From positions 62,001 to 126,000 of the forward strand of contig JAHUUM010000001.1 of the NCBI GenBank assembly GCA_019218445.1: a stretch of 64,000 nt of DNA, given 5' to 3'. The stretch comes from Weeksellaceae bacterium TAE3-ERU29 (GTDB taxonomy: Bacteria; Bacteroidota; Bacteroidia; Flavobacteriales; Weeksellaceae). The notes below the pieces were generated by a model. That model had not been told where the DNA came from. It was given only the letters and a program-made list of their open reading frames with translations, and made no database searches. This document shows, in pieces, positions 7,691-63,504 of this stretch. Positions within the stretch are counted from its first letter, which is position 1, and each line of letters begins with the position of its first letter. The position numbers and the translations under genes were made by a program.

Positions 7691-7754
7691 TTGCTTGTTT
7701 GAAAAAACAGAGTTTACTCGCAAGTCTTTGTATTGCTAAATACAAAAAATTGAA

Positions 7755-7797: not shown

Positions 7798-7874
7798 ATT
7801 TTTTTTGCTAAATTTAATTTTAGCTTATTTGTATATACAAAAAATATTCTATAAACTAACGCACACGCATAATT

Positions 7875-7913
<39 letters not shown>

Positions 7914-7997
7914 ACACAATTTCTAAAACTGTGCAAATTTAAAATGTTAAAGTTTATATTTTTCTGTGTGTTGGTCATTTAATCTTTGATAACGCTA

Positions 7998-8027
7998 CAA
8001 ATGTAAGTATAATTTTTCCTTTTACAA
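7998..8027 (-). promoter_or_regulatory. Promoter of surface locus 1
   Basis: On the minus strand a TTG (plus-strand 8025-8027) is followed after 19 nt by TACATTTG (plus-strand 7998-8005). This fits the Bacteroidota sigma-ABfr consensus TTG-N17-23-TAnnTTTG. Conserved GTTATCA follows at the expected start point in both loci. Confidence 0.7.
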
Positions 8028-8086
8028 AAAAGTCTTTATCATTATTACTCTAAAACCTTTCGCTTTTTTAATTTATTTCTTTTATA

Positions 8087-8094
8087 TATCTTCG
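8087..8094 (+). promoter_or_regulatory. Candidate -7 box of trmB
   Basis: TATCTTCG, a one-base variant of TAnnTTTG, ends 6 nt before the ATG, so the mRNA would be almost leaderless. The same TATCTTCGCA string precedes pssA at 46623. Confidence 0.4.
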
Positions 8095-8100
8095 CAGTCT

Positions 8101-8775
8101 ATGGCAAAAAACAAACTACAAAGGTTTAAAGAGAACGAGAGTTTTTCACATTTAATTCAACCAAACAGAGAAGAGGTTTTAAATGATTTTTATTTAAAAC
8201 ACAATTGGCATAAAGATTTTTTCAAAAATGAAAATCCTATTGTTTTAGAGCTGGGTTGTGGCGGTGGTGAATATACCATAGGACTTTCTGCACTTTATCC
8301 CGAAAAGAATTTTATTGGAGTGGATATTAAAGGAGCAAGATTATGGAAAGGAGCCAAAAAAGTACAAGAAAATAATATTAAAAATGTAGGTTACTTAAGG
8401 ACTCAAATTGAATTGATTGCCGATGCTTTCGGGGAAAATGAAGTAGATGAAATTTGGATTACTTTTCCTGATCCTCAAATAAAATTTAGAAGAGCAAAAC
8501 ACAGACTTACTCATCCTAATTTTTTAGAATTATATAAGAAAATACTAAAACCTAACGGAATTATTCATTTAAAAACCGATAGTGAGTTTTTACATGGCTA
8601 CACTCATGGTGTCATAGAGCAAAACGAATATAAAGTTTTAGCCTCCAACCATGATATTTACCATAAAGACACCTTCGATTTACCGGATTATGTAACCGGA
8701 ATTCAAACTTTTTATGAAGCTAAATTCAAACAAGAAAATAAAAAAATAACTTATCTTAGTTTTAAACTCAAATAA
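8101..8775 (+). CDS. trmB: tRNA (guanine-N7-)-methyltransferase TrmB
   Basis: 224 aa, normal length for TrmB, which methylates G46 in the variable loop of tRNAs with S-adenosylmethionine in the cytoplasm. The SAM-binding motif I is VLELGCGGGEYTIGL (residues ~49-63), followed by FIGVDIKGARL. The family signature TFPDPQIKFRRAKHRLT lies at ~121-137, with the downstream HLKTDSEFLHGYT typical of the substrate side. The start at 8101 follows a -7-like box directly, which supports this ATG. It is a single gene facing upp, with which it shares a terminator, and is divergent from the leader of surface locus 1. Identification is confident. Confidence 0.93.
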   Translation: MAKNKLQRFKENESFSHLIQPNREEVLNDFYLKHNWHKDFFKNENPIVLELGCGGGEYTIGLSALYPEKNFIGVDIKGARLWKGAKKVQENNIKNVGYLRTQIELIADAFGENEVDEIWITFPDPQIKFRRAKHRLTHPNFLELYKKILKPNGIIHLKTDSEFLHGYTHGVIEQNEYKVLASNHDIYHKDTFDLPDYVTGIQTFYEAKFKQENKKITYLSFKLK

Positions 8776-8806
8776 AAAAATCCCATTTCGTTGAAATGGA
8801 ATTTTT
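8774..8806. terminator. Bidirectional terminator between trmB and upp
   Basis: TCCCATTTC-gtt-GAAATGGA flanked by A7 on the left and T5 on the right, between convergent genes. Confidence 0.75.
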
Positions 8807-8815
8807 AGTTTTCTC

Positions 8816-9475
8816 TTATGATTGAAGTTTAGAGCCAAAGCATAAATCGCCCGCATCGCCCAAACCGGGAACAATATAACCATTCTCATCTAAACTGTCA
8901 TCTATGGTCGCACACCAAACAGTAGCTTGAGGTAAATCTGTATTTATTTTCTTAATTCCTTCTTTTGCTGCAATCGCACAAAGAATATGCAATTCAGACG
9001 GAGTTCCTAACTCCAAAACCGCATTTACAGCCTCACATAAAGATGCTCCTGTAGCAAGCATAGGATCAGTTACAATTAACGGTCTATTACTAATATCAGG
9101 GCAAGTTACATAATCTTGTTTTATTTCAAAACCCTGTTCATTATGTTTTCTATATGCAGCTACAAAACCACTATCTGCATTATCAAAATAATTAAGCACT
9201 CCTTGATAAAGTGGTAATCCGGCTCTTAAAATCGTCATGATTACCGGTTGTTTTTCTAACTCACAAGACGACTTAACCCCAAGAGGAGTCTTTATTTCAC
9301 AAGGAACATAATTCATAACTTCACTTATTCGCAAAGCACCAATTTCGCCTATTCTTTCTAAATTTTTACGAAAACGCAACCTATCTTGTTGCACATCTAC
9401 ATTCCTAAGTTGATTAACCCATGATGTTAAAATTGAGTTTTTTTCAGCTAAATCTACGTATTTTAAGGAGTCCAT
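8816..9475 (-). CDS. upp: Uracil phosphoribosyltransferase
   Basis: 219 aa. Converts uracil and PRPP to UMP in pyrimidine salvage. The PRPP-binding loop is VTDPMLATGASLCEA (~125-139). The C-terminal uracil-binding signature GYIVPGLGDAGDLCFG is intact. TILRAGLPLYQGVLNYF earlier in the chain is the conserved phosphoribosyltransferase core segment. Length and domain match the family. Its promoter is probably the TAAATTTG box 15 nt upstream. It converges with trmB and is divergent from the O-methyltransferase gene. Identification is confident. Confidence 0.93.
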   Translation of the reverse strand: MDSLKYVDLAEKNSILTSWVNQLRNVDVQQDRLRFRKNLERIGEIGALRISEVMNYVPCEIKTPLGVKSSCELEKQPVIMTILRAGLPLYQGVLNYFDNADSGFVAAYRKHNEQGFEIKQDYVTCPDISNRPLIVTDPMLATGASLCEAVNAVLELGTPSELHILCAIAAKEGIKKINTDLPQATVWCATIDDSLDENGYIVPGLGDAGDLCFGSKLQS

Positions 9476-9490
9476 AATTCTTTATTTTGC

Positions 9491-9498
9491 CAAATTTA
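9491..9498 (-). promoter_or_regulatory. Candidate -7 box of upp
   Basis: TAAATTTG on the minus strand, 15 nt upstream of the ATG. It matches TAnnTTTG; no clear TTG at the standard distance. Confidence 0.45.
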
Positions 9499-9574
9499 AT
9501 AAGACTTATCTACAATTAAAAATTGATTTAAAATATTTTTATTAGAATTAGCGAAAATAGTTTTAGTAAATTCA

Positions 9575-9582
9575 TATTTTTG
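9575..9582 (+). promoter_or_regulatory. Candidate -7 box of the O-methyltransferase gene
   Basis: TATTTTTG ends 4 nt before the ATG at 9587, which would give a leaderless message. Confidence 0.4.
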
Positions 9583-9586
9583 TTAA

Positions 9587-10240
9587 ATGTTTAATAACGA
9601 TATTTTACCCCAAGAACTGAGCGATTATATTGCTGCATTTTCCTCTAACGAGCCGGAATATTTAACTTATGTAAGAGAGAAAACTGAGAAAGAAATGCAC
9701 CAACCACACATGATATCAGGTGCTTTTCAAGGTAGATTTTTAAGTATGATTTCAAAATTATTAAAGCCAAAAAATATTTTAGAAATCGGTACTTATACGG
9801 GGTATGCAACTCTATGTTTAGCAGAAGGACTTCCTGAAAATGGAAAAATAACGACATTGGACAGAGATGAAAGAGTTGCAGAGTTTTATAAACCTATATT
9901 TAAAGACTCTAATTTCTCTGATAAAATAAACGCAATATTAGTAGACGCCATAGAGTTTTTAAAAAATTATAATGGGGAAAAATGGGATCTAGTTTTCTTA
10001 GATGCCAATAAAAGAAAGTACATAGAATATGTAGAGTTACTTTTACCACAAATGGAATCAGGTGGTTTAATTCTTGCAGATAACGTTTTATGGAAAAATA
10101 AAGTATTGAATAATATTGATTCTAAAGATAAAATAACGAAATCTTTGCATGAATTTAATACTTTTGTAAAAGAAGATAAAAGAATAGAGGTTGTAATGTT
10201 GCCAATAAGAGATGGCTTAACAATGATTAGAAAAATATGA
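9587..10240 (+). CDS. SAM-dependent O-methyltransferase (caffeoyl-CoA/catechol type)
   Basis: 217 aa, the usual length of family 3 O-methyltransferases (YrrM/caffeoyl-CoA OMT-like). Motif I is ILEIGTYTGYATLCLAEGL (~62-80), then TTLDRDE. The metal-binding and catalytic segment is DLVFLDANKRKYIEY (~134-148) with LILADNVLW (~162-170), whose Asp and Asn coordinate a divalent metal in this family. The substrate is not predictable; some bacterial members methylate tRNA hydroxyuridine (TrmR) and others small phenolics. The next gene (NlpC/P60) overlaps its stop by 4 nt, so they are co-transcribed. Family is sure, substrate unknown. Confidence 0.85.
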   Translation: MFNNDILPQELSDYIAAFSSNEPEYLTYVREKTEKEMHQPHMISGAFQGRFLSMISKLLKPKNILEIGTYTGYATLCLAEGLPENGKITTLDRDERVAEFYKPIFKDSNFSDKINAILVDAIEFLKNYNGEKWDLVFLDANKRKYIEYVELLLPQMESGGLILADNVLWKNKVLNNIDSKDKITKSLHEFNTFVKEDKRIEVVMLPIRDGLTMIRKI

Positions 10241-20947: not shown

Positions 20948-20997
<50 letters not shown>

Positions 20998-48128: not shown

Positions 48129-48133
48129 TAAAA

Positions 48134-48171
48134 AACGGGTTAGAGAAATGAAATTCTCTAACCCGTTTTTT
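48134..48171. terminator. Terminator at the left edge of the surface operon
   Basis: AACGGGTTAGAGAA / TTCTCTAACCCGTT with T7 tail. A near-identical hairpin stands at 63558, after the response regulator. Confidence 0.85.
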
Positions 48172-48237: not shown

Positions 48238-48759
48238 TTAGTTCCAAAAAAACCAATAATCCCCATTAAAAACAGCTAAAGACTTACTTGAAACATCATA
48301 GGCAATAGTTCCGGGCTCCGGATTACTAATGTCTTTAGTTACATCATTTACATGAGGAAGTAATAATGCCTTCTCACTACTTTCTAATTTTAACACAGCA
48401 GAATCATCTGTTGAACTTAATAGAGAATCATCTGAAATAGTAATACCATCACCTATTTCTCCATTTGCTGGCAAAGAGTACTCTTTAATAGAAGCTTCTG
48501 TCATTTCTACTTTTCCATTCCCTGACTGATACATGACTTTTTTTGTAGAAGAGTCTACCCATAAAGCTCCTTCTTTAGCAATAGAAGAGTCTAATAAAAT
48601 AGGTAATATAATACCTTTAGCCTCTCCATTAGGTTCTACAATATCGTTAAATTCCATTATAGAACTATTACTTCTGAAAGTCTCTTTTTCGATAGCAATT
48701 TGTGCTTTTACTATTAAATTACACAATAACAATACTGAAATTATAATTGTTTTTTTCAT
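48238..48759 (-). CDS. Small secreted protein with two surface modules (173 aa)
   Basis: The signal peptide ends at IVKAQ. Two copies of the short module follow: KGIILPILLDSS with EGALWVDSSTKK, and KALLLPHVNDVTKDISN with GTIAYDVSSKSLAVFNGDYW. The same module is found in the fibre and lyase proteins of loci 1 and 2. It is the last gene of the minus-strand operon 10 nt after the 2429-aa protein, and ends before a terminator shared in sequence with the other side of the operon. Function unknown; likely associates with the other surface proteins (inference). Confidence 0.7.
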   Translation of the reverse strand: MKKTIIISVLLLCNLIVKAQIAIEKETFRSNSSIMEFNDIVEPNGEAKGIILPILLDSSIAKEGALWVDSSTKKVMYQSGNGKVEMTEASIKEYSLPANGEIGDGITISDDSLLSSTDDSAVLKLESSEKALLLPHVNDVTKDISNPEPGTIAYDVSSKSLAVFNGDYWFFWN

Positions 48760-48769
48760 AATTATTTTT

Positions 48770-51700
48770 TTATTTATTACATCCTTGTGTTATACAAGCC
48801 CACTCTAAGCCTTGACCAAAGTCTTTAAATAACTCTAAACATTGATTTGTTATATTCCAAATAATCATACCTTCGATTGGATTTGATATTTTATCTCTTT
48901 GTTCAGTTGTTAATCTTGTTATTACAAAAGGTTTAGTTGCGGACTCCATTTTTATAAATCCATTTCTTGAATTCTGTATCCAATTATCATTTTCATAATT
49001 TAATGTTGATATACCTACTTTTGTTTGAAGGCTGACACCATTTTCATAAGGGGCTTTTTTACAAATGTTTTTTATTGTTTGACCATTTTCTACAATCCAT
49101 TTATATGATTGTGATTTTAAACCACTACTATTATCTTGAGCTTCTATATTTTTAACATCAACAGATAAGGTATAATCCCCTAAATTTGAATTGTACGGTA
49201 ACAAATTATCTATATAGAACACTTGATCATTTTCTTTATGAATAGAAACTTCAGAACTTCTCTGTTTATTAAAACTACTATTCATTCTACTATAATTCAA
49301 ATGTTTTCTATTCGTAGAAGAAGACGTTAAATGTTTTCCATTTAAAAGCAAATCTTCAATAGTAAAGGTACTAGCAATAATCGGTTTATTAAAAATAACT
49401 TTAACTCTATTAATTGATTGTTGATCTTCTTCTGAATTTTCAAAATCAATTATTCCTAATTCGTCACCAAACTGAGTCCATTCTACAATCTTTATTTCCT
49501 TACCTGTTTTCCCTTTAGTGGTTTTTATTCCTTGCGTATTAATTAAAAATCTATAAGAGCCTCTCTTATCTGTCAAACTCTGGAACATTATTACATATTC
49601 ATTTCCTTTTATTTTATCTATAACCAAATGTTTCAAATCTACTTTCTCTCCATTTCTATATAAAGCTACATCTACTAAATTAAATGAGTTTTGATCTATA
49701 TCTGTATTAAAATATACAGTTATATTTCTTATAGACTCATTTGTTCCTTGTGGCACATGACTCATTTTTTCAATTCTTAAATCAATAGCTGTCTTTTTTC
49801 TAAAGAATAAAGAGTATGTTTCATCTTGATCTATAAAGTCTATAAAATGTATTTTATTCTCATATAAAGGATCTTCTCTATCCTTTAAAGTAACGAAAGT
49901 CTGCCAATAATTTTTCTCTGGAATCTCATAGTCATCTCTATCTCTAATAACTTTATATAATTCATAAATTCCATTACCCGGGTCATCTACATTAAAATAA
50001 TTCCAACCATCAGGACCCGCTTCTACATTTAACTTAACCTGAAGATTATTTACATTAACCTCTTCATTTATTCCAAAAGATAAAGGTTTAAATACATCTA
50101 AAACCTTACCATCTGATAAATATAAATGATCCGGGTAATCATCATCGTCAGGAATATCATTTACTAAAAAGTCTGCGAGACCATCATTCTCTGAACTAAT
50201 ATCTCCATCTATACTTTTTATAAGTTCGTGTACGTTTGCTCCACTTATTAGACTCAAGTTTTTATTCCCAAAACTTGTTGTATGAGCTACTTCCACTTCG
50301 TTTTTAATAAAGTGTCCTAAAATATTACTTTGTACCCACCATTGTCCTATTTTTACCGAGTGAGCTCCTACAGTTCCAAAATCAATTAAATTATAGCCCA
50401 AGTCTATTGGCTCATTATTAATACTACCTCCTACTAAATCAAATTTAATAGGAACGTGCTTTTTATTCTCAATAATTTTTGGTCTCATAGATTCTACTTG
50501 AACATTCTTAGCATCTCCATAACCATTATTTCTTATCATTAGTGCTAATTCTGCCGGGACAGACTGCTCTACAACATCTTCTGTTAAAGGATCATCTCCT
50601 AAAATATTTCTTTTTAAGAAATAATCTAAAGTTAGATCCGGAGAAGGATTAACTTCTAAAATTGTAGGATTTAACTCAACAGTCACACGATCGTCTATGA
50701 CAGAATCATAATAAGAAAAACTTCCTCCAAAACTATATGAGATTGGTGTCTCTGGAGCAGCTTGTTTAGTTGGTATAAATATAATCTCCCCTTTACCAGA
50801 GTTATTTGGCTCAACTGTCCCATCTCCGTTTAAAAATTCATCCGGATTTATTTGAAACAAATCATTTTTATTTTCCCCTTCAAGATTTTTTATTTCCGGT
50901 ATAAATCTTATATCTGAAATATTATTATTACTTCCATTATTTATTTTAAGAGTTCCTTTAAAAGCTTCTCTTGTCATAGTTACTCTTTGCTCAAATTCTA
51001 ATGTTATAGTTGCACAAACATTTTGACTCCTTTTTTTAGAAACCTCTTTTTCTAGCCCCTTAACTGCATCATAAAATAATTCATAAGGAGATGCTTTATG
51101 TCTCGCTTTTACTCTATCCTTCAATTTTTGCTCATATCCTAATAAATAATTTAATTCATTTTTATTTATAATATCAGGATATTGATCATTTGGCTCTAAA
51201 ATCCCTTGATTCCATGCGTCTATAGAAGCATTCCATTTATTTGCAAAATCGTCTATATATAAATTCACAATAGATGAGTATCCTAATTCATTCTTTTTAT
51301 CTTCAAGTTCAGATACTGTTATTTTTTGCTCTTGCTCTAATGTTCTCGCAAATTTTTCAATTATTGAGAAAAACTTTTCTTTTTCTGTATTATAATACAA
51401 ATCTTCTCCGAAAGTATATAATAGGCGTGCTTTTCTTGCAGTATGTGTATTCCTTACTGTTACTAAATCTACGAACTGATTATCTAACTCTCCTATTACT
51501 TCTTCTGTTGTCTCCACATAAAATGAAGGCCTATGATCTTCATTTTTTAATTTTTGATTTCTTCTATGCTCAGGATATATACTACTTCCTATTTCAAACC
51601 CACATGCAAAAGCATTAACCATTTGATCTACTACTCCTAGAGCTGTATTAATTCCTTCATCAAACAAATCATATATAAAACTTTTTGTTTCATCTTCAAC

Positions 51701-54700
51701 ATAATCTTTTAACCTTTCCGGATTTCCATCTATCGCATCTTGTACTTTACCCACTAATTTTACTTTATCAAATATTGCTGATATTTTTGGGAAGAATCCC
51801 ATTATTAGTTGTAAACACGGATCACAAAAATCAATAGGAGTTGATATTTTTACAGGTTCTCCATCGGAAATTACTTTTTTATTAGTTGGACTCATAGGTA
51901 AACCAGGACCAAAATTACGAAATCCGCTTGTATCTCTAATTAGGCCTCCTCCTTCACCATAGTCTCCCGAAGGATATGGGTTTTCCGGACACCCTTTATT
52001 AAATCTATAATAATTATAAGAGAATAAAGTTAAGTATTCATTTCCACATCTATACATATATCTAGTAGTTACTTTTATAGGTCTACAGTCTATAGTTGCG
52101 TCTTTTCTAGTAATTAAGACAGGGACTTCTAGCATCTCTCCTGGAGCAAGAAACCTTATAGATGAGTTTATTAAAGGAGATATGTCATATCCAGTTAAAC
52201 TTTCAAAATTTAATTCTCCATTTTCTGCTGCAACTAAACCATGATTTGTAATTTTCACAGTACTCATCATTTGTTGTCCTACTTCTAAATCTATCTCAGA
52301 ATTATCTATATCTATCGTTACAACCGGTTTAGGAACATTAGTTTCAAAAGTAGTAATTAATTTCACCTTATATCTATCTTCTATTTCTATTCTCTCTACA
52401 GTATAGTCATAAGTAATTGCTTTATAAGGTAAAATAGCTATTACTCGTGTTTCTCTTTCAGGTGCTATAAGTATTACTTCTTGATGAGGATTATGATGCT
52501 CTGCACTTAGTTTTAAAATATATTTACCTTCCTTTATATTCTCTAAATTTAACAATCCATCACTTCCCGTAATACCTTCTGCTACTACAGTACCATTAAA
52601 AGGATGAATTACTTCTACTTTTGCTCCTGCCAAATGTGGCTTCTCAGTAGTATTATAAGTAAATTCATCTGTTGCATCTACTAATAAACTTCCTGTATTA
52701 TCAGAAACTGTTTCTATTCTAAACGGAATTTTCACACCATCTGAATTGTCAGAATTAACAGCTATAGAACCTACTATTGGTACATTCACTTCTTCTGTTT
52801 CTGTAGGCGTAAGGTTAAATAATAGTGTAACTTCTTGTTCCGGTTCTAAATTACCTATATTTTTCACATTATCCATCTGTAGCCAGGCTAAATCCGGTAA
52901 ATCTATCACTACATTTTTAGCAACCATTCCTCCTTCATTTCTTAAAACAACTTCTATTTGACGTGTTTCTCCTTTTGTCATAGTTGTATTGAGTGCTTTA
53001 GGGTTTATTACCAATTTAGCATCAGCTTTTCTACTGTGATAATATATGTTTTCTATTCTTTCTGCTCCCTCATTAGACATTATTGTAATAGGATAAGTAT
53101 AAAACTCATTTAAAGGCATTACCTTATTAGATATTACAGTAAACTCAAAAAGTTTTTTCTCTCCCGGTAGTAAAGTAATAGGAGTTTGTCTTAACTCAAA
53201 AGGAACATCATTAGGAAGCTGGATGTTTACTCCTGTTAATGTTGTATGAGTGTCATTTTTTAAGTCTAAACTATAAGTTTTAGGCTCTCCATAAAATGGC
53301 ATCCATTTTATAAAGTTGGGTTTATTTACGATATTTATACCTAAAACTTCGAATTCCTGATATTCACTATTTTGAAATTCGGGATAACTTGCTGTTACCA
53401 AATAATAACCAGATTCATTTTGTAATGGCTTAAATCGATAAACAAATTCTCCATTATCATTTGTGGTTAAACTATATTTTCGGGATATACTTCCTACACT
53501 AATTTTTAAATCAAAAGGAGCATTAGCCAGAGGCGTATCATCTAAATTTAATGTTCTTCCTGATAAAACAACAACTTCACCATTCAAAAACTGCTTTTTA
53601 TTAACATCTAACGTAACTTTATAAGATGGATTTAAATTAATTACTTTAGATCTTGAATTATTATCATAATTAAGCTCTTGAATAACTTTTTTCTTATTTA
53701 CAACTGCTGTTAAATAAAATTCTCCCGCTTTTTCCGGTAACTGATAATTAATCGGTACAGAAAGAGATTCATTTGGATTTATACTTTCTGGTAATACTAC
53801 TTCTGATAATAACTGACTTCTACTATTTACTGTATTTCCAAAATAAAGATTAACTCTTGCTCCTTTCGCTAATACATTAAACCCTATATTCCTAATAGTA
53901 GCAACTGATCTGGCTGTTTGCCCTCCATTTAAATCTGTATCTACAGTCAAATCATACACTATTGCATCTGCTATATTTTGATCTACTACTAATAAATAAG
54001 CTATAGCAGACTCAAAATCATTTGCTTCTGCTCTAATCTCTATATTTTGATTTCCACTTAAAGAGGTATCTATACTTGTAGTAAAAGGAACTCTTACAGA
54101 AGTTTCTCCCGCGGGTATGGTTACACTATTCTGTATTTTTAAAACACTTTCATAATTATGAGAAATAGAAACAACAACTTCTTCTTGTAATAATATGGGT
54201 TCTTTAATGTTACGAGAGATTTCCAATTCTCCCTTTTCTCCTGCTTTTAATGTTGATGAACTAACTGATATATTTAATTTAGCATTATCATTATCCTCTA
54301 CATTAATCTGTTTCTGAGCTTTATCCGTTTGTATTGGAATGTAACAATTACAGTTTGGAGCATAAACTTGTGGATATAAAGTTACTACTCTTGTGCCATC
54401 TACAGTTGCATTATCTATTACTCCATAATTAAATGATATTTCATTTACTCCTTCTTCAAAAGTTAAGTTTTCAGGTAACATTAAAAGTCCTGATATATCC
54501 GTTTTAAGTTTTATTTTAAGCACTTTATCAGTAGATTTTCTTTTTAATGTACCCACACCTGCATTAACTCCCGCTGCTTCAGAAATATCATAATTAGTCA
54601 AACTCATTTCTATTTGCGGTATATTTGAATCTGCCAACTCTATTACCTTCCTTGCAACCTCTCTATTATTTAATTTTACAATTATATTTGCTTGTTCTGA

Positions 54701-56059
54701 CTTTATAATCTCTTGACTATTTATTATAGTAGCATTAAACGTAATTGTTTTCTCACCTGCCGATAATTCTATAAACTCAGGTAATTGTACTCTATTAGAC
54801 TTATTCGTTTCTAAGTAAAACTTTTGATTCTCTGCATATACAAATCCTACATTTAGAGTGAATAAAATATTATCCCCTGGATTGGAAGTGTAATCATCAG
54901 CTACTGTGAGTGTATAACTTTGCTCTTCATCTTCTATATAATGAAGATTTACACCCTCTTCAGAATATCCATTCCCTTTTACTTTTATCTCAAAATCTTT
55001 AGTTCCTTGTACTACTTCATTATTTATAGCTCTATAATTTACAGTTGCACTTGATTCTCCTTCAGGAATTGTAATATTTGTAGGTATATCTATATATCCT
55101 TCCCCCGTAGATGTTATTGTAAATGTTTCTGCTTGGGCTGTTTCTCCACTTCTAACTACAGTTAAAGTATAATTTGATTCACTATTTTCTTTAAATGAAG
55201 TGTTAGACGCTCTTATGTAGAGTTTTTTAGATAATTGAATAACGTCAGATATTAATACATTATTATCAGTAATCGTCTCAGGATTAGCTGTTTCATTAAG
55301 AGGCTTTACCTCTACTCGTATTTTAACATCTCCGGATATTCCTACTTCTTTAGGCAATGTCAAAGTAATATTTTGATTAGATGCTACATCTTTCGTTAGT
55401 TCTTGTATTACATCTCTACTATATAACTCCTTTTGAATAGTTCCGGACGAGTTCTGTAAAAATACTTTTTGATTCCATCCTCTCTCTAATTTACCTTCTG
55501 TTTTATTCTTAACCTGCCAACTAACTTCTATACTCTCTTCTGGTGATATTTGTGTTTTATTTACCTCTAAGTTCTCTACACTTAAATCTACTTTCTCTTT
55601 AGAAATAGTCAGTATACCATTTTTATGATTAGTTCCTATACTTTCTCCATTAGGTGAGCTGAGTATCACATCGGTTAATCTTAAATCATACTGACTTCCT
55701 ATTCTTAAACTATTATCTAAAGCAATAGGTATTTTAATTAATGCCCCTTCATTTCCTTTAAAAGTTGCATTAGTTCCTGAATAAACTATTACAAGATATC
55801 TATTACCACCTTTATTTCGAATAATTAATGAATGATTCTTTTTCCTATCAGTTAATTTTGTTTCATCTGTATTTACAGATAGACCTTGCGGAAGATAAAG
55901 ATTAAACTGCACTGCAGTTACTAAATCTGTATTATCCATAAGGATAGATATTTCACCGGAGCTTTCTGCTCTGAGTGTCATATCTTTTACGGATAGACTA
56001 TTCTGGGCTAAACACCAAGAGCTAAGCCATGTAAATAGTACAATATATATATTTCTCAT
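48770..56059 (-). CDS. Giant secreted multidomain protein: cohesin-like head, Calx-beta/CARDB repeats, C-terminal NP-x-EGM module (2429 aa)
   Basis: The signal peptide ends at CLAQ. Residues ~19-150 look like a cohesin fold (SLSVKDMTLRAES, FNLYLPQGLSV, IKIPIALDNS, LTDVILSSPNGE). Then come CARDB-type segments (VDLSVENLEVNKTQIS), Calx-beta-like repeats (SESNYTLTVVRSGE), more CARDB (~740-850), an Ig-like segment with GEFVYRFKP, and several paired Ig-type segments with NNG-AKNV. A helical region spans ~1450-1650. Two Big-type segments lie near the end, and the last ~85 residues (QTKVGISTLNYENDNW to QGCNK) repeat the tail of the PL8 lyase. It lies within the operon between the dockerin protein and the 173-aa gene. 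Function: very probably extracellular scaffold or adhesin. Confidence 0.75.
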   Translation of the reverse strand: MRNIYIVLFTWLSSWCLAQNSLSVKDMTLRAESSGEISILMDNTDLVTAVQFNLYLPQGLSVNTDETKLTDRKKNHSLIIRNKGGNRYLVIVYSGTNATFKGNEGALIKIPIALDNSLRIGSQYDLRLTDVILSSPNGESIGTNHKNGILTISKEKVDLSVENLEVNKTQISPEESIEVSWQVKNKTEGKLERGWNQKVFLQNSSGTIQKELYSRDVIQELTKDVASNQNITLTLPKEVGISGDVKIRVEVKPLNETANPETITDNNVLISDVIQLSKKLYIRASNTSFKENSESNYTLTVVRSGETAQAETFTITSTGEGYIDIPTNITIPEGESSATVNYRAINNEVVQGTKDFEIKVKGNGYSEEGVNLHYIEDEEQSYTLTVADDYTSNPGDNILFTLNVGFVYAENQKFYLETNKSNRVQLPEFIELSAGEKTITFNATIINSQEIIKSEQANIIVKLNNREVARKVIELADSNIPQIEMSLTNYDISEAAGVNAGVGTLKRKSTDKVLKIKLKTDISGLLMLPENLTFEEGVNEISFNYGVIDNATVDGTRVVTLYPQVYAPNCNCYIPIQTDKAQKQINVEDNDNAKLNISVSSSTLKAGEKGELEISRNIKEPILLQEEVVVSISHNYESVLKIQNSVTIPAGETSVRVPFTTSIDTSLSGNQNIEIRAEANDFESAIAYLLVVDQNIADAIVYDLTVDTDLNGGQTARSVATIRNIGFNVLAKGARVNLYFGNTVNSRSQLLSEVVLPESINPNESLSVPINYQLPEKAGEFYLTAVVNKKKVIQELNYDNNSRSKVINLNPSYKVTLDVNKKQFLNGEVVVLSGRTLNLDDTPLANAPFDLKISVGSISRKYSLTTNDNGEFVYRFKPLQNESGYYLVTASYPEFQNSEYQEFEVLGINIVNKPNFIKWMPFYGEPKTYSLDLKNDTHTTLTGVNIQLPNDVPFELRQTPITLLPGEKKLFEFTVISNKVMPLNEFYTYPITIMSNEGAERIENIYYHSRKADAKLVINPKALNTTMTKGETRQIEVVLRNEGGMVAKNVVIDLPDLAWLQMDNVKNIGNLEPEQEVTLLFNLTPTETEEVNVPIVGSIAVNSDNSDGVKIPFRIETVSDNTGSLLVDATDEFTYNTTEKPHLAGAKVEVIHPFNGTVVAEGITGSDGLLNLENIKEGKYILKLSAEHHNPHQEVILIAPERETRVIAILPYKAITYDYTVERIEIEDRYKVKLITTFETNVPKPVVTIDIDNSEIDLEVGQQMMSTVKITNHGLVAAENGELNFESLTGYDISPLINSSIRFLAPGEMLEVPVLITRKDATIDCRPIKVTTRYMYRCGNEYLTLFSYNYYRFNKGCPENPYPSGDYGEGGGLIRDTSGFRNFGPGLPMSPTNKKVISDGEPVKISTPIDFCDPCLQLIMGFFPKISAIFDKVKLVGKVQDAIDGNPERLKDYVEDETKSFIYDLFDEGINTALGVVDQMVNAFACGFEIGSSIYPEHRRNQKLKNEDHRPSFYVETTEEVIGELDNQFVDLVTVRNTHTARKARLLYTFGEDLYYNTEKEKFFSIIEKFARTLEQEQKITVSELEDKKNELGYSSIVNLYIDDFANKWNASIDAWNQGILEPNDQYPDIINKNELNYLLGYEQKLKDRVKARHKASPYELFYDAVKGLEKEVSKKRSQNVCATITLEFEQRVTMTREAFKGTLKINNGSNNNISDIRFIPEIKNLEGENKNDLFQINPDEFLNGDGTVEPNNSGKGEIIFIPTKQAAPETPISYSFGGSFSYYDSVIDDRVTVELNPTILEVNPSPDLTLDYFLKRNILGDDPLTEDVVEQSVPAELALMIRNNGYGDAKNVQVESMRPKIIENKKHVPIKFDLVGGSINNEPIDLGYNLIDFGTVGAHSVKIGQWWVQSNILGHFIKNEVEVAHTTSFGNKNLSLISGANVHELIKSIDGDISSENDGLADFLVNDIPDDDDYPDHLYLSDGKVLDVFKPLSFGINEEVNVNNLQVKLNVEAGPDGWNYFNVDDPGNGIYELYKVIRDRDDYEIPEKNYWQTFVTLKDREDPLYENKIHFIDFIDQDETYSLFFRKKTAIDLRIEKMSHVPQGTNESIRNITVYFNTDIDQNSFNLVDVALYRNGEKVDLKHLVIDKIKGNEYVIMFQSLTDKRGSYRFLINTQGIKTTKGKTGKEIKIVEWTQFGDELGIIDFENSEEDQQSINRVKVIFNKPIIASTFTIEDLLLNGKHLTSSSTNRKHLNYSRMNSSFNKQRSSEVSIHKENDQVFYIDNLLPYNSNLGDYTLSVDVKNIEAQDNSSGLKSQSYKWIVENGQTIKNICKKAPYENGVSLQTKVGISTLNYENDNWIQNSRNGFIKMESATKPFVITRLTTEQRDKISNPIEGMIIWNITNQCLELFKDFGQGLEWACITQGCNK

Positions 56060-56067: not shown

Positions 56068-56122
56068 TTTTTTATTTAAAAATCCATTGTGTGACTTATA
56101 ATCACACAATGGTATAAACATA
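56068..56122 (-). terminator. Hairpin between the dockerin gene and the giant gene
   Basis: CCATTGTGTG / CACACAATGG with a 9-nt loop (56082-56110), in the 71-bp gap. No strict T run follows, so partial termination or RNA processing is likely. Confidence 0.55.
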
Positions 56123-56130: not shown

Positions 56131-58692
56131 TTATTGAACCAATATATTTGCTTTTAATAACTTCACATTATTATCTACATTACATTCTATCACTATTATG
56201 TATTTACCTGCCGGCAATTGATTCCTATTAATTTTTAACTTATTCTCTCCTTTTTGAATATTTAATCTATTATTAAATATCAGCTTACCAGAAGAATCGA
56301 ATAATTTCCAATTTCCGACGCCCTCTCCGGCTGTGTTAAATAATACAGTTGCCGTATGAGAGAAAGGATTAGGATAAACCTTAATTGTTCCTGTACTTTG
56401 CTCCTGTTCTATAATCTTAGGTTTTTCTATCTTATCGGCAATTACTTTCCAAGACATTTCTTTTGCTTTGGCATTAGATAATACAGCGGTTTCTACTAAA
56501 GGAATATCTGTACTATAATCAGCAATTTTAGTTTTAGAAGAAATTCCTTTATCAAAAGTATAAGCTAATACACTTACTTTTTTTCCTAAATCTTTAATTA
56601 CTACTTGATATCCTTCTTTACTCAACAGCTCTTGTATTTGTTCTGCCTTAATTCCGGAAAGTCTTAGCTCAAATGAGGCTACTGCTTCTTTCAAAGGTTC
56701 TATATAAATACCATCTTTTGCTAAGTGTATATTGACTTTAGAATCTTCCCCTACTCTTCTTCTTGATGTATTACCGGCATTTCCGTTTGTATGTTCTGTT
56801 GCTTGTATTACTGTTACTAATTTTACAATATCTAAAACATTAATAGAAGAATCATTATTTTGGTTTGCGGTAGCTTTATTAAAATATTCTATATCTTGTT
56901 CTCCCAGTATATAATTAATTTGTGTCTGTAAATCTAATACGTTTACATCTCCATCTATATTTACATCTCCATTTATATAAGTAAGAACAAAGTTTAGTTT
57001 ACTATCTTTAGCCGCTCCGGAAGTTTGAATAAATTGTATTCTCTCATTTTGTTGGAAATTCCAAACAGGCATTACTTCTTTTAGCTTAATACCGGAAACA
57101 GGAACTTCTTTTGATTGAGAATAAGATGAACCTATCTTCAGTTTATACTGTTGAGGGGTATAATTCTTATAATCCACGTTATAATGGTGAATATTAGTGA
57201 ATTGAATATTACTACTTGACAATTCTACTTCTCCAAAATCATTTTCTTGTTGTTGAAACTTAACATTTAAGTCTTCAGGGACTTCTCCCTCTAAACGATT
57301 TACATGATTATGTTGAACATCAAATATTTGCAACTCAGGTAATCTGTTAAGTATATCCGGAATATAACCTACCAAATTATTATTAGCCAGTTCTATTTTA
57401 GTTACATGCCCGTTTTCTACCTTTACACCATACCAAGGGAAATAATGCAACTCATTTTTAAAGATATCCCATGTATTCACCCAGTTTGCTCCATTTGTAG
57501 CTGTGTACAATTCTTTTAAAGCTTCATATTCACTTTCCGGTACAGCAGGCGTATGTATTATATCTCCATCATACTGAGTCTCCATACTATAAACCGGTGA
57601 CCAATTACCAAGTTTATCTTGATATCTTACATTAATTGTATGTATTAGATAATTTCTATTACTTAAATCAAAAGTATGGTCATCTAAATATTCACTTTCC
57701 TCAGCAGAAATGTCTTTCACTATTTTATGATTAAAGAAATCATTGAACCAGTATTCTGCTTTTACAATACGATTTTCCTCTATAGGCTTATTGGTTTCTT
57801 CTAAGTTTTTAGTAATAACAGGACTCCATGCTCCGGCTTTACTTTGGAATCTATAGCTTATCTTTCTTTTTCCCGGTTGCCATGGGAGAGACTCTATTAT
57901 TTCTCCTGTTTGGGTATCTAATACTATACTCTGTTTAGAGGTAATGTCATCATCATACCAATACTCTAACAATGTAATTTTATTATCTATATTTGAGTAT
58001 TGTTCCAAATTTTTACTAATTACATAACTATATATTCCTGCGTCATTTAAAAAGCGATAACTTACTTTTTTATAATTCACATTCCAAGGAATAGAAATAT
58101 CTACATTATCATTTTCCGGAGTTATTTCTATCCTCTGCAATTCATTTACAGCATCATTATACCAATACTCCAAGGCTACTATTTTATTTTTAATATGAGC
58201 AAACTCTTTAAAACTCTTAGAAAATATAGGTGTAATATAATTATACTTAGACTTAAATCTGTAATAGATTCTCCTATCGGTAGTATAATCCCAAGGGACA
58301 GCTATCTCCTTTTGCTCTACTACAGAGTTTCCGTCATATACAGTCTCCATAGGTTGCGTAACCTTTTGGTCTTCTTTCCCTTTATACCAGTACTCTATAC
58401 TTATAGGCAAACGCTCATCATCTTTTTTACCCCTTACCGGTCTGGATAGTATAGGGGAATATTCTCCTGCAGCATTTTTAAACTGCAAGTGCACCATTTG
58501 ATCTATATAATGCTCGCCATCATCCGGAAAATCTATAGAAAGCTCTACTTCCCCTTCTGCGTTAAGCGTAACATCTACAGTGGTTCTATGGGCAAAATCA
58601 TCGCCCAACCAGTAGGTGCAACTCGTTATAGGCTCTTGTGCTTGTGCCGAAAGACAAAGCATAAAAACCAAAAATGAAAAAAAACATCTCAT
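56131..58692 (-). CDS. Secreted repeat protein with LRR, dockerin-like pair and T9SS sorting domain (853 aa)
   Basis: The signal peptide ends at AQAQ. Residues ~20-380 contain about five repeats of ~60 residues marked by EYWY(N/D)D, LPW and ISYRFQSKAGAWSPV. A leucine-rich stretch (~385-480) opens with ALKELYTATNGANWVNTW. Dockerin-like calcium loops are at ~570-620: GDVNIDGDVNVLDLQTQINY and NNDSSINVLDIVKLV. A further beta domain follows (~645-745). The last ~85 residues (IKVYPNPFSHTATVLF, LPAGKYIIVIE) are a type-A T9SS C-terminal sorting domain, so it is exported through type IX secretion. It is 3 nt downstream of the beta-helix gene. Confidence 0.8.
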   Translation of the reverse strand: MRCFFSFLVFMLCLSAQAQEPITSCTYWLGDDFAHRTTVDVTLNAEGEVELSIDFPDDGEHYIDQMVHLQFKNAAGEYSPILSRPVRGKKDDERLPISIEYWYKGKEDQKVTQPMETVYDGNSVVEQKEIAVPWDYTTDRRIYYRFKSKYNYITPIFSKSFKEFAHIKNKIVALEYWYNDAVNELQRIEITPENDNVDISIPWNVNYKKVSYRFLNDAGIYSYVISKNLEQYSNIDNKITLLEYWYDDDITSKQSIVLDTQTGEIIESLPWQPGKRKISYRFQSKAGAWSPVITKNLEETNKPIEENRIVKAEYWFNDFFNHKIVKDISAEESEYLDDHTFDLSNRNYLIHTINVRYQDKLGNWSPVYSMETQYDGDIIHTPAVPESEYEALKELYTATNGANWVNTWDIFKNELHYFPWYGVKVENGHVTKIELANNNLVGYIPDILNRLPELQIFDVQHNHVNRLEGEVPEDLNVKFQQQENDFGEVELSSSNIQFTNIHHYNVDYKNYTPQQYKLKIGSSYSQSKEVPVSGIKLKEVMPVWNFQQNERIQFIQTSGAAKDSKLNFVLTYINGDVNIDGDVNVLDLQTQINYILGEQDIEYFNKATANQNNDSSINVLDIVKLVTVIQATEHTNGNAGNTSRRRVGEDSKVNIHLAKDGIYIEPLKEAVASFELRLSGIKAEQIQELLSKEGYQVVIKDLGKKVSVLAYTFDKGISSKTKIADYSTDIPLVETAVLSNAKAKEMSWKVIADKIEKPKIIEQEQSTGTIKVYPNPFSHTATVLFNTAGEGVGNWKLFDSSGKLIFNNRLNIQKGENKLKINRNQLPAGKYIIVIECNVDNNVKLLKANILVQ

Positions 58693-58695: not shown

Positions 58696-59655
58696 TTAAC
58701 GTGTTTGTGGTATTACACGTACTTTTATTTTAAACTGCTCATTTTGCACATCTAAGTAACTATTATCTTCTTTTACCATAGGTGCAAATGGGTGAGCATT
58801 CTCCTTCCAAGGGTAGTCTCCGTTGTAAATACCCATTTTTGAAATATCTGCTCCGCTGATACTTGCATCCTCTGCAAAATGATAATCTTGCGTATAAGCA
58901 GGTGTATCTGACGTTACATTTTTAAAAAGAGCTTTAAATTTATTCCAATCATTTGTGAAATGAGTATTTACCAATGTACAGTTATTTAAATTGTAGGTAT
59001 GAACTCCTATACTATTTTCTATGATTGTATTACTCATAGAATAATAAGAAGGATATGTTGCTGAATAATTCCATCCTCCTGAATAATAAGCATTAACAGA
59101 AGAACCTGTACAATTTTTTATTAAACTGTTATCTATATTATTAAAGAATCTTGCTACAGAGTTATATACATAAGAATTTTTAAAATACTCTAAACGGTTT
59201 TTTACCATTACTTCTATAAAAGTATTGTTTTTGGCATAACCATTCTCACCATATCCTTTAATATTATTTGCCAATATTCTTTTCATGGTAACATCATGGG
59301 CTTTACCTTCCGTAAATTCTATATTATGAAACTCTGCTCCCTCTAAAATACTTCCGGAGGCGGCTTCTGTAATTTTAAGTGTTTTACCATCCGTGTTTAT
59401 ACGGGTAACACTGGTGGCTTTTTCTACGTTAGGATTATAACCGGTACCTATAATGTGTACAGGCTTGTCTAAGGTTTCTAACTCATATATACCATCCGGC
59501 ATATAGATAACATCATTTGCTTTCGCAAGATTTACCGCTTCTTGCAAAGTGGTTGCAATGGCATCTGTTTGCGGTCCTTTAATGGCAATTACACGGTTTT
59601 GTGCAAAAATAGCTAATGCACAAAATAAGACTAAAAAAGTAAATGTTTTTTTCAT
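58696..59655 (-). CDS. Secreted right-handed beta-helix protein (pectate-lyase-like fold, 319 aa)
   Basis: The signal peptide ends at IFAQ. The start of the mature chain (ATTLQEAVNLAKANDVIYMPDGIYEL in the sequence order, first ~65 residues) is the usual opening of pectin-lyase-fold proteins, and Asn/Gly-rich rungs follow (ANNIKGYGENGYAKNN, DNSLIKNCTGSSVNAY). I do not see a complete catalytic set of any named lyase family, so enzymatic activity is open. First gene of the four-gene surface operon, directly after the LytTR-type promoter at 59.7 kb. A role in binding or degrading polysaccharide is inferred from fold and context. Confidence 0.72.
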   Translation of the reverse strand: MKKTFTFLVLFCALAIFAQNRVIAIKGPQTDAIATTLQEAVNLAKANDVIYMPDGIYELETLDKPVHIIGTGYNPNVEKATSVTRINTDGKTLKITEAASGSILEGAEFHNIEFTEGKAHDVTMKRILANNIKGYGENGYAKNNTFIEVMVKNRLEYFKNSYVYNSVARFFNNIDNSLIKNCTGSSVNAYYSGGWNYSATYPSYYSMSNTIIENSIGVHTYNLNNCTLVNTHFTNDWNKFKALFKNVTSDTPAYTQDYHFAEDASISGADISKMGIYNGDYPWKENAHPFAPMVKEDNSYLDVQNEQFKIKVRVIPQTR

Positions 59656-59707: not shown

Positions 59708-59738
59708 CAAATTTAACGTTAACAATCCTTTCACACAA
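59708..59738 (-). promoter_or_regulatory. Promoter of the four-gene surface operon
   Basis: On the minus strand TTG (plus 59736-59738), 20 nt, TAAATTTG (plus 59708-59715): a complete Bacteroidota promoter. Direct repeats end 8 nt upstream of its TTG. Confidence 0.75.
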
Positions 59739-59746
59739 TAGACATT

Positions 59747-59777
59747 ACACGAAACCCTCAAAATTTGACACGAAACC
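59747..59777. promoter_or_regulatory. Direct-repeat operator, probable LytTR binding site
   Basis: ACACGAAACC occurs at 59747-59756 and 59768-59777, a perfect 10-bp direct repeat with a 21-bp period (two helical turns). LytTR regulators bind paired direct repeats at this spacing. It lies in the 167-bp gap between the surface operon and the LytS/LytTR genes, immediately upstream of both promoters. Confidence 0.7.
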
Positions 59778-59801: not shown

Positions 59802-59809
59802 TACCTTTG
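59802..59809 (+). promoter_or_regulatory. Candidate -7 box of the sensor kinase gene
   Basis: TACCTTTG, perfect match to TAnnTTTG, 13 nt before the ATG at 59823. Confidence 0.55.
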
Positions 59810-59822: not shown

Positions 59823-62765
59823 ATGAGGCTTTTAACTGTTTTTATAGGATTTTGTTACGGTATTATTCTACAAGCTCAAGTAGAATACAGTAATACTTAT
59901 GTTTATCCTCTGCCTCAAGATAACGACAATGCTTTTAATATATATTTATTAAAGAGCTATGATAATATTTATACCATTCCCTATACCGGAGGTATGTATA
60001 AAATCGATAATCAAAATGAAAAAATATTTTGCTCTAAAGATTTAAATATGCGTAGAAGCATTAAAAGTATAAATAAAGATGATTCTACTTTTGAGATTCT
60101 AATTAATAAAAAATCTTTAGTATATAAAAAGGACTCTATAACAAAAGTTTTAAATATCCCCGATGATATTAACATTCATAATAATGTTGTTTATGACGAT
60201 AATCTCTATTTTCTCTCTATTAAAAATGATAAACTCTATGTTTATAACGGGCTTAATATTAAACTTGTAAAAAATTTAAACACAAATTATTCTTATTCTT
60301 TTTGTAAGATAAATGAAAGTAGCTTTTTGGTAAAAAATAAAGGTGATAAAGTCTATTTAATAGAGTTGGATAACTTCAAAATTAAAAAAGAATTTTCTTT
60401 AAAGAATTTCTATAGTCTTTGGTACTTTTCTGACTCTTCAATTATTTATATTAATAATAATAAAGATTTTATCAAAAAACATAATAATGGAGAATATAAA
60501 TTTATCGGAAAAGAAGATAATGCACAAATCTATAATCAATGGGCTTTACGACGAATAAATTCTAAAACCATAAAAATAACAAATATAGAAACAGAGAGAG
60601 ATTATTTTATAGACACCGATTCTTATATTTTTAATTTTATAGTAGATGAAAAGAATAAAGCAGTTTATCTCGGCACAGGGCAGAGACCTATGAAGTCTTT
60701 TTTGTACATTAATAAAATACCTAATACATTTGATAATGTGACTTCTAACTCTTGTTTTACACTGGCAGAAGATAACAAAGGAAACATTTGGGCAGGAAGT
60801 TACAACAAATATTTATCAGTCATTAAGAAAGATACCATCGTTTCTAAACAAGTATCTAATTTAAAATTTTTAATTGGAAGTATTAGTCTTGGCGATACAA
60901 TTTATTTTACTACCGAAGGCGACACTGAGGGAGGAATTTGGGGAATGACTTCAGAAAGTAAACCATTTTTAGTAAAAGATAATAGCAAAAAAAGAGTACA
61001 AGGATTTTATTTATTTAAATCTTCTAAAAATAAAATCTATTACGGAACTTCAAAAAGAGGCCTATGGGAAATAGATGAAAAAGATTTAAAATCAAATAAC
61101 GGAAAATGGAGTATCATAGATGAAAATCAAACAGATAAATTAGTAAATATATTAACAATTACAGAAGATAAGTATGGTAGAATATACTTTGCCGGTACTT
61201 TAGGAATAGGTATTTATAAGGATAATAAAACAAAATATTTTTTAGCAAAAGATAGTGTTTTGCCTAAACCTATCTGTTCTTTGACAGATTCTTATGGTAC
61301 AGTTTGGTTTGGAGGAAAAGGAGGAGTATATTATATTACCCCGAATGATAAGGAAATTGAGTCAATTGATTTAAAAAAATTAAATCACCCTTTTCTAAAT
61401 CATAAAGATACTTTTACAACTGCACTTAGCATCAATCAGAATTATCTTATTGTTGCAAATCAGAATAGAATGTTAGCTTTAGATTTAAAAAAGTTTCATG
61501 AGTCTAAAGAAATTAATATAAAATATTTAACTTCTCAAGAAACTAATTTCACCTCTACAACAGAACAAAATACTACTTTAACAGCAAAAGACGGGAGTGT
61601 TTGGTTTTCTACTTTAGATATGATTTATCGGTGGGATTTTAATACATGGCTTAAACTGCCTAAACCTAAAATAAAACCTAAGCTTCAATTAATAACTAAG
61701 GATAATAATATTGAGCTTATTAAAGCTAAAAAAACACGATTATCTTCATTTGACAATACATTTAAAATAACTCTTAATTATAGTACGCCGGATAAGTTGC
61801 CCAGATATATACAGTATGCTTTCCAAAACAAAAACGACTCTATAGAATGGAGTGAAATAAATACTAAATCTGAATTTAATTTTCAAAATTTAAAAGCAGG
61901 GGATTATACATTTCATTTAAAAATATTTGAATTAAACGGCTCTACAAGTTATTATAAATACTTTATAGTAATCCCAAAATTTCTGCATGAGCTTTGGTAT
62001 TTTTGGTTAATTGTAGGAGCTGTCATTATAACTATTGTAAGCTATATAATATATACTCATCAAAATGCAAAAACAAAATTAGCTAATTGGGAACTGGAAA
62101 AAGAAAAAGTAAATAAACAACTATCCCAACTTCAGTTAACTTCTATCAGCAATCAATTCAGACCACACTTTCTATTAAATACATTCAATTCTCTTGGGGC
62201 ATATTTAGAAAGTGGATCTTATGAAGAAACTGTTTTAGATACAATGGGGAAGAGTATAAATATTCTTTTTTCAACCGCTAAGAAAGAAAAAAACTATCAT
62301 TCTTTAAAAAAGGAATGGCAATTAGTAAAAAATCTTATCAAAATTTATCAGTTAGTTTATATAAAAGACTTAAAAACTAAAGTTCCTTCCAAAAAACAAA
62401 TAAAATTAATAGAAGATCTCAATATTCCTTTTGGGATATTACAGATACCCATAGAAAATGCTTTATTACATGGATTACATAATAAACCAACCCCACCTTA
62501 TTTATTAAAAGTTTTATTAGAGAATAACGAATCAGAAATAATCTTTAGAATTATTGACAATGGAGTAGGAATTCAAAAAGCCGGTACATTATCTAACGTT
62601 CGTAAAAATGGAACCGGTTTAAAAAATTTAAATAAAATTATTGCTGTATTTAATCAATATAACTATAATAAAATAATTTTTGCTTTTATAGAAAATCCTC
62701 AAAAAGAAGGTACTGAAATTAAAATTATAATCCCTAAAAACTTTAATTATGAAATCAATAGTTAG
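59823..62765 (+). CDS. LytS-type sensor histidine kinase with beta-propeller/Y_Y_Y sensor domain (980 aa)
   Basis: The signal peptide or first helix is MRLLTVFIGFCYGIILQAQ. A periplasmic two-part propeller of Reg_prop-like blades (for example NIWAGSYNKYL, VWFGGKGGVYY, VWFSTLDMIYRW) covers ~20-620, then a Y_Y_Y domain (~625-715: FKITLNYSTPDKLPRYIQYA...FQNLKAGDYTFHL). One membrane helix (~720-745), a coiled coil, and the His kinase domain with His782 in FRPHFLLNTFNS, N-box IPIENALLHG, G-boxes IIDNGVGI and GTGLKNL. The sensor reads an external signal, by analogy polysaccharide, and phosphorylates the LytTR regulator whose gene overlaps it by 17 nt. Confidence 0.88.
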   Translation: MRLLTVFIGFCYGIILQAQVEYSNTYVYPLPQDNDNAFNIYLLKSYDNIYTIPYTGGMYKIDNQNEKIFCSKDLNMRRSIKSINKDDSTFEILINKKSLVYKKDSITKVLNIPDDINIHNNVVYDDNLYFLSIKNDKLYVYNGLNIKLVKNLNTNYSYSFCKINESSFLVKNKGDKVYLIELDNFKIKKEFSLKNFYSLWYFSDSSIIYINNNKDFIKKHNNGEYKFIGKEDNAQIYNQWALRRINSKTIKITNIETERDYFIDTDSYIFNFIVDEKNKAVYLGTGQRPMKSFLYINKIPNTFDNVTSNSCFTLAEDNKGNIWAGSYNKYLSVIKKDTIVSKQVSNLKFLIGSISLGDTIYFTTEGDTEGGIWGMTSESKPFLVKDNSKKRVQGFYLFKSSKNKIYYGTSKRGLWEIDEKDLKSNNGKWSIIDENQTDKLVNILTITEDKYGRIYFAGTLGIGIYKDNKTKYFLAKDSVLPKPICSLTDSYGTVWFGGKGGVYYITPNDKEIESIDLKKLNHPFLNHKDTFTTALSINQNYLIVANQNRMLALDLKKFHESKEINIKYLTSQETNFTSTTEQNTTLTAKDGSVWFSTLDMIYRWDFNTWLKLPKPKIKPKLQLITKDNNIELIKAKKTRLSSFDNTFKITLNYSTPDKLPRYIQYAFQNKNDSIEWSEINTKSEFNFQNLKAGDYTFHLKIFELNGSTSYYKYFIVIPKFLHELWYFWLIVGAVIITIVSYIIYTHQNAKTKLANWELEKEKVNKQLSQLQLTSISNQFRPHFLLNTFNSLGAYLESGSYEETVLDTMGKSINILFSTAKKEKNYHSLKKEWQLVKNLIKIYQLVYIKDLKTKVPSKKQIKLIEDLNIPFGILQIPIENALLHGLHNKPTPPYLLKVLLENNESEIIFRIIDNGVGIQKAGTLSNVRKNGTGLKNLNKIIAVFNQYNYNKIIFAFIENPQKEGTEIKIIIPKNFNYEINS

Positions 62766-63504
62766 AAATTATACTTATTGTGTTATTGAAGATGTAGAAG
62801 ACGTAATTATTGGCATCTTGAATAGAATGAAAAAATATAAAAATTGGAAAAGCATAGGAGAAAGTAGAGAAATAAAGTCTGCTTTAAACTTAGTTAAAGA
62901 GCATCATCCAGACTTAATTTTTATGGATTGGAGTTTAAAAGGGGGAAGTACTTACGAAATATTGGAGTATATAAAAAAGAATAAATATTATGCTCCTTAT
63001 ATTATCTTCTTTACTGCTTTTCAGAAAGATGAACCCACTATTCCGGAAATAGTACACAATAAGTATAAAGTAGATAAATATCTTCTAAAACCCATTTGGA
63101 GAAAGTTTAGTGGAAATCTCGAACAATATTTAAAAGAAGCTTCTTCTAAAAGCTCATGTAATACTTACCTTGAAATAACTGATGTAAATAAAAATATATA
63201 TAAAATTAATACCTCTCATATAACTTCTGTTTCTCTTTATGATCAGAAAAAAAGAACTAAAACTATCCGCTTATTGTCAGGAGAAGAAATAATTGTGAAA
63301 AACACATTCCAAGAAATTGAAGAAATACTTATAAAGAGGAATATAGACTTTATTTATACACATAAAAGATACTCAATCGTGATAAAAAATAATATAGAAA
63401 AATTTGAAGAAGGATATGTGTTTTTCTATGAAAACAAAAGTCCGAAAGTAGAAGTTTGCAAGGAAAATATTAAAAATGTTACAAATTGGCTAATAAACAC
63501 TTAA
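62749..63504 (+). CDS. LytTR-family response regulator (251 aa)
   Basis: The receiver domain (~10-130) has the acidic pair in VIEDVED, the phosphoacceptor Asp60 in DLIFMDWSLKGG, and Lys in DKYLLKPIW. The LytTR DNA-binding domain covers ~150-245 (YLEITDVNKNIYKINTS, then FIYTHKRYSIVIKNNIEKFE). It is encoded with its kinase, overlapping by 17 nt. The perfect 21-bp-spaced direct repeat upstream of the kinase and of the surface operon is its likely operator. It ends 53 nt before a terminator of the same sequence as at 48134. Confident. Confidence 0.9.
   Translation: MKSIVRNYTYCVIEDVEDVIIGILNRMKKYKNWKSIGESREIKSALNLVKEHHPDLIFMDWSLKGGSTYEILEYIKKNKYYAPYIIFFTAFQKDEPTIPEIVHNKYKVDKYLLKPIWRKFSGNLEQYLKEASSKSSCNTYLEITDVNKNIYKINTSHITSVSLYDQKKRTKTIRLLSGEEIIVKNTFQEIEEILIKRNIDFIYTHKRYSIVIKNNIEKFEEGYVFFYENKSPKVEVCKENIKNVTNWLINT

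Follow-up and report, generated by a model that had tools for sequence, protein, structure and literature searches.

The locus studied here lies in a 64,000-nucleotide stretch of the genome of Weeksellaceae bacterium TAE3-ERU29 (the window), where a 167-bp gap separates a minus-strand gene for a beta-helix-like protein from a plus-strand sensor kinase gene. This gap holds a pair of direct repeats, ACACGAAACC-N11-ACACGAAACC at 59747-59777, whose two perfect 10-mers (59747-59756 and 59768-59777, plus strand) are 21 bp apart from start to start; within the 64-kb window the exact 10-mer occurs at these two places only. Half-site 1 reads GGTTTCGTGT toward the surface genes and is conserved at orthologous loci. 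On the minus strand it is followed, after eight nucleotides (59739-59746), by a TTG -33 element at 59736-59738 and, N20 further on, by the -7 element TAAATTTG at 59708-59715, 31 nt from half-site 1, which together form the predicted surface-gene promoter. In the other direction, the kinase promoter has the -7 element TACCTTTG at 59802-59809 (plus strand), 24 nt past half-site 2, and no TTG -33 element at N20 from it. TAnnTTTG is the sigma-A -7 box in flavobacteria (PMC9723704). The initial annotation had reported the perfect 10-bp repeat at 21-bp spacing, a complete promoter beginning 8 nt from it and a -7 box on the other strand, all of which are borne out.

On the surface-gene side, the exported beta-helix-like protein (58696-59655, minus strand) is encoded by the first gene of an operon whose second gene, after a gap of only 3 nt, specifies a T9SS-sorted dockerin-type protein (56131-58692, minus strand). 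The 71 nt between this gene and the next contain a terminator-like hairpin (56084-56112, minus strand; 13 bp, then ATTTTT; folding z -5.4), beyond which lie the genes for a giant 2429-aa exported CARDB/CarboxypepD_reg protein (48770-56059, minus strand) and a 173-aa exported protein (48238-48759, minus strand), with a further strong terminator-like hairpin at 48130-48171. Because a strong terminator-like hairpin precedes it, membership of the giant gene in the operon is doubtful, and it may be only partly, or not at all, in the regulated unit. The proposal that the pair controls a beta-helix/dockerin/giant operon can be kept for the beta-helix and dockerin genes and is probably too broad for the giant gene, for which the hairpin at 56084-56112 could possibly act in attenuation.

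The sensor kinase (59823-62765, plus strand) comprises a signal peptide, a Reg_prop propeller, Y_Y_Y, a transmembrane segment and a LytS-type His_kinase domain (PF06580 at 33.7 bits); its RPHF-LN, N-box (ENAL-HG) and G-box (DNG-G, NGTG) residues are invariant in four orthologues. The response regulator (62749-63504, plus strand) pairs a receiver domain (PF00072 at 46.2 bits), in which the phospho-acceptor Asp of F-x-D-W (D60) is invariant in eight orthologues, with a putative divergent LytTR domain. A search of the window regulator against Pfam LytTR (PF04397) gave no match even at E 10 and found the receiver domain alone; the sole Pfam LytTR match in this genome is in another gene, C1:18329. 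Among the orthologous regulators PF04397 scores 31.7 bits in Bergeyella, 22.6 in Ap0902 (the cut-off itself) and 19.0 in G101 (below it). An AF2 model made from the eight-orthologue alignment (pLDDT 85.6; a single-sequence model was too poor) has full-length ComE chains, of REC-LytTR architecture, as its best five PDB matches (E 2.9e-10 to 2.0e-9), with both domains aligned over 256-258 columns; whole-chain TM against ComE is only ~0.4, probably because the two domains are oriented differently. The best NCBIfam match is BtsR, nearly full length and far below cut-off. Because orthologues reach the LytTR cut-off and the model matches the ComE fold, the regulator is, as judged from homology and modelling, a divergent LytTR regulator, in agreement with the initial description of the gene.

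Taken by itself, the repeat pair is mildly unusual and only a lead, because shuffled sequences yield such pairs fairly often: when the 167-bp intergenic region was dinucleotide-shuffled 2000 times, 19 of the shuffles (~1%) contained a perfect 10-mer pair at a spacing of 20-23, and 20 shuffles of the 64-kb window gave 16 such pairs, or ~0.8 each. Comparison across loci, beyond the lone pair, makes the sequence case for a predicted operator solid. A leave-one-out profile derived from the sites of other genomes gives the window pair the highest score in the 64 kb, 29.4 bits versus 13.5 for the runner-up.

Diverged repeats at exactly 21 bp are found in the same place in nine other kinase-regulator orthologues from Flavobacteriales and Chitinophagales, which in further genomes were located with a kinase alignment: 'Flavobacteriaceae bacterium Ap0902' (44%), Bergeyella zoohelcum, G101 (another genus of the family), Niabella drilacis, a Ferruginibacter MAG, a Flavobacterium MAG and three further Chitinophagaceae/Bacteroidetes MAGs. 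Kinase identity is 31-44% for full-length orthologues and 33-37% over the best segment for the remaining ones. The nine pairs are ACATGAAACC/ACGCGAAACC, CATGAACGGTA/CATGAACGGTA, CACGAGCGGTA/CATGAACAGTA, CACCAAACC/CACGAAACT, CACCAAACC/CACGAAACA, CACCAAGCGG/CACCAAACGG, CACCAAACCG/CATGAAACGG, CATCAAACC/CACCAAACC and CAGCAAACC/CATGAAACG. A motif-free test, which took the best 10-mer self-match at each of 35 spacings in the 160 nt upstream of the kinase genes, gave a mean of 8.5/10 at spacing 21, against 5.7-6.9 at the 34 other spacings and 6.3 (sd 0.28) in shuffles, making 21 the sole enriched spacing among those tested. The kinase -7 element follows the proximal repeat by 24 nt in five loci and 25 nt in two (7/10 together), and by 33 or 35 nt in another two orthologues; L062 falls outside these counts.

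The kinase-regulator pair is absent from three congeners, and it appears to be rare, because class- and phylum-wide searches at E 1e-40 added no further close kinase orthologues; a search of genome contigs with the regulator alone returned no matches. Two peculiarities of the orthologous loci deserve mention. In Niabella drilacis (L063 7054-10082) the kinase orthologue is split over two frames (7054-7572 and 7641-10082), which reflects either a frameshift or a sequencing error. In two other loci (L064 5827-6984 and L065 3054-4211) similar genes for a 385-aa ATPase-like protein with the motif RQSGKTT lie directly upstream of the kinase, with the operator between the two; this gene was possibly inserted into an ancestral divergent arrangement.

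A search of the rest of the genome for the repeat pair, which the initial annotation had recommended as a check, uncovered further candidate members of a regulon. The own-genome scans were pattern searches, and a promoter-free pair pattern gave two more sites, C23:152599-152628 and C50:8023-8052, both of which precede lipoprotein genes and have no adjoining kinase gene. Read toward the neighbouring gene, all three own-genome sites have the order repeats-N8-TTG-N20-TAnnTTTG: GGTTTCGTGT-AATGTCTA-TTG-N20-TAAATTTG in the window, and GGTTTTGTGT-AAGAGTAA-TTG-N20-TATTTTTG and GGTTTCGTGC-AAAGTCAG-TTG-N20-TAAATTTG at the other two, where the -7 offset is identical to that of the surface-gene promoter. 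As TTG-N20-TAnnTTTG has only two occurrences in the window, both strands summed (1.6e-5 per position), its presence at the same offset in two newly found sites is not chance. A pattern joining half-site and promoter, allowed at most two mismatches, recovered exactly these three sites, each with 0 mismatches, and had no hits in the three congeners lacking the kinase-regulator pair; it was composed after the three sites were known and is a test of uniqueness, not of discovery. The C23 target is a 1051-aa Fib_succ_major/Big_2 lipoprotein and the C50 targets are two related BspA-type leucine-rich-repeat/Big_2 lipoproteins; by inspection, the targets of all three sites have signal peptides or lipoboxes. 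The two C50 genes (C50:8118-13190, L096) are tandem homologues whose products are ~46% identical, likely duplicated adhesin-like proteins.

Other genomes also contain sites apart from that of the kinase. An extra 21-bp site in L065 precedes the gene for an exported relative of the window's beta-helix protein (23% identity, E 1e-12); in L064 such a site stands before the gene for a T9SS-sorted reprolysin-type protease and in L060 before that for a 337-aa secreted protein. In L061 the kinase-side site also faces a T9SS-sorted protease. Bergeyella zoohelcum has a four-copy 21-bp array, likewise with N8-TTG-N20-GAAATTTG, and the lipoprotein on the array side is 39% identical to the C23 target over 625 aa. 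Its kinase-proximal operator is separate from this array, and between them (L049 13970-14520) lies a roughly threefold, ~110-bp low-complexity tandem repeat (GCAGGAGGCAATAGGCTGTAAGC...TTCAAACAACTTCAA) that may space the two. Across eight surface-side sites, the -7 box scores a mean of 5.25/6 at offset 31, compared with 2.2 (sd 0.64) over all offsets, and in every case the repeats share the orientation of the kinase gene and are inverted relative to the surface gene. Only the window and Ap0902 show clear two-way use of one site, and L061 is a likely further case; at the kinase-adjoining sites of L060, L064, Bergeyella and G101 no convincing divergent -7 element was found.

Some matches were set aside. 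Those at L060:3204, L097 and L065:8290 were excluded from the operators because they lack a promoter or lie inside a gene; at least two profile or pattern matches (L060:3204 and L097) show no promoter where one would be expected. In 79 relatives, the pair pattern with one mismatch is about as frequent as its reversed control. The single 21-bp pair matches inspected in relatives without the kinase-regulator pair (L101, L103 and L104) are probably due to chance, because all lie within coding sequence.

We consider it very likely, from these sequence comparisons, that the regulator encoded at 62749-63504 uses the repeat pair as its operator, an activator site for the surface promoter and, reversed, for the kinase-regulator pair's own promoter. 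A signal sensed at the periplasmic propeller of the kinase would lead to phosphorylation of the regulator, which would then bind the two LytTR half-sites on one face of the helix, 21 bp apart. Toward the surface genes the layout is the canonical LytTR one and would most likely recruit RNA polymerase to the beta-helix/dockerin operon, and the two further copies would recruit it to the genes for the Fib_succ_major lipoprotein and the two BspA-type leucine-rich-repeat lipoproteins. Toward the kinase the same pair, in opposite orientation, abuts the position of the missing -33 element and would most likely mediate autoregulation; positive autoregulation is more likely than negative, because the kinase promoter has no -33 element. 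The repeat pair is thus very probably a docking site through which the regulator switches on its own genes together with three or more sets of surface-protein genes. The initial reading of the repeats as a LytTR operator, and the suggestion that the sensor-regulator pair controls both itself and the surface genes, gain support from the 21-bp spacing conserved in front of the kinase orthologues, the two extra sites of the same geometry before surface lipoproteins and the REC-LytTR fold.

The site could also belong to this regulator and serve mainly autoregulation of the kinase-regulator pair, with the divergent surface genes as bystanders. The repeat-to-kinase arrangement is indeed the one conserved in every orthologue, and several genomes have a different divergent neighbour or no promoter at the right place. 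We nevertheless think this improbable, as the C23 and C50 sites occur without a kinase yet before surface lipoproteins and with the same N8-TTG-N20-TAnnTTTG, and L060, L064 and L065 have separate sites before exported genes. It is somewhat less probable still that the repeats bind another protein: the site tracks the kinase-regulator pair across orders, the three congeners without the pair also lack the operator-promoter pattern and the one-mismatch pattern in relatives hardly differs from its reversed control, even though the LytTR regulator C1:18329, a clear Pfam match elsewhere in the genome, would be a ready candidate, as might be an unrelated surface-gene factor. Finally, a chance repeat or repeat-element remnant with no regulatory role has next to no probability. 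About 1% of shuffled intergenic regions hold such a pair, as does, on average, about every shuffled window, but the spacing is kept though the letters have diverged, matching sites occur in nine other orthologous loci and three sites of the same geometry lie within one genome; these comparative data in practice refute an accidental origin.

The proposed operator resembles known LytTR sites. Published examples consist of 9-11-nt repeats with an 11-13 spacer (PMC4847170) and lie 4-11 bp, mostly 8-11, upstream of the -35 element, one form being ACCnnTTAn repeats that are separated by 12 bp and usually stand 10 bp ahead of -35 (PMC6193735). The classic activation geometry proposed in the initial annotation fits this spacing, TTG being 8 nt from the repeats at each of the three own-genome sites. 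As in the operators of AgrA, ComE, YpdB and VirR, two direct repeats (here 10 nt, spacer 11) stand just upstream of the -35/-33 element, and the regulator is of the REC-LytTR type, with ComE as best fold match. Unlike in those systems, the promoter is of the Bacteroidota type (TTG / TAnnTTTG) and one repeat pair appears to serve two divergent promoters, reversed for one. The repeat letters, CAYSAAACSG, also depart from the common ACnGTT form, which reappears in Bergeyella, where the sequence on the surface-gene strand, ACCGTTCAT-N12-ACCGTTCAT-10 nt-TTG, agrees with the published ACCnnTTAn repeats (PMC6193735).

LRS systems (HdrRM, BrsRM and LRS-like Bacteroides operons) are similar in that they have autoregulatory direct repeats, which are separated by 11-13 bp and lie 4-11 bp in front of the promoter, and the LRS-like Bacteroides repeat examples end in TATCTTTG. 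They differ in that their partner is a membrane inhibitor protein, whereas here a PF06580 histidine kinase with a propeller sensor takes that place and a receiver domain is part of the regulator. BtsS/BtsR and YpdA/YpdB share the combination of a PF06580-type kinase with a REC-LytTR regulator. In LytS-type BtsS/YpdA kinases, however, the sensor is a membrane-embedded 5TM-LytS domain; the kinase studied here instead has a Reg_prop/Y_Y_Y propeller like that of Bacteroidota hybrid systems.

The locus is best described as a well-supported, sequence-predicted new regulon that uses a known mechanism, LytTR operators, and not as a new type of mechanism. A limited literature search found no description of the operator of this kinase-regulator pair, and documented cases of a regulator with its operator seem to be few for the surface and T9SS-exported proteins of Bacteroidota. 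There is perhaps an even chance that we are dealing with an undescribed, sparsely distributed Bacteroidota switch, in which a propeller kinase and a divergent LytTR regulator are dedicated to cell-surface and T9SS-exported proteins and the operator works in two directions from fixed, unequal distances, with species-variable targets and a fixed geometry. What it offers is a precise motif, GGTTTYGTG-N12-GGTTTYGTG-N9-TTG-N20-TAnnTTTG, together with a candidate three-site regulon in one genome and a candidate regulator that escapes standard domain searches. Of most interest are the apparent use of one operator in two directions and the replacement of surface targets while the promoter geometry is retained, and the natural variants of the repeats, AAACC versus AACGGTA, provide material for mapping LytTR specificity. 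Elsewhere in the window, perfect dinucleotide runs, (AC)22 at 20950-20994 and (TG)16 at 7879-7911, are possible phase-variable tracts.
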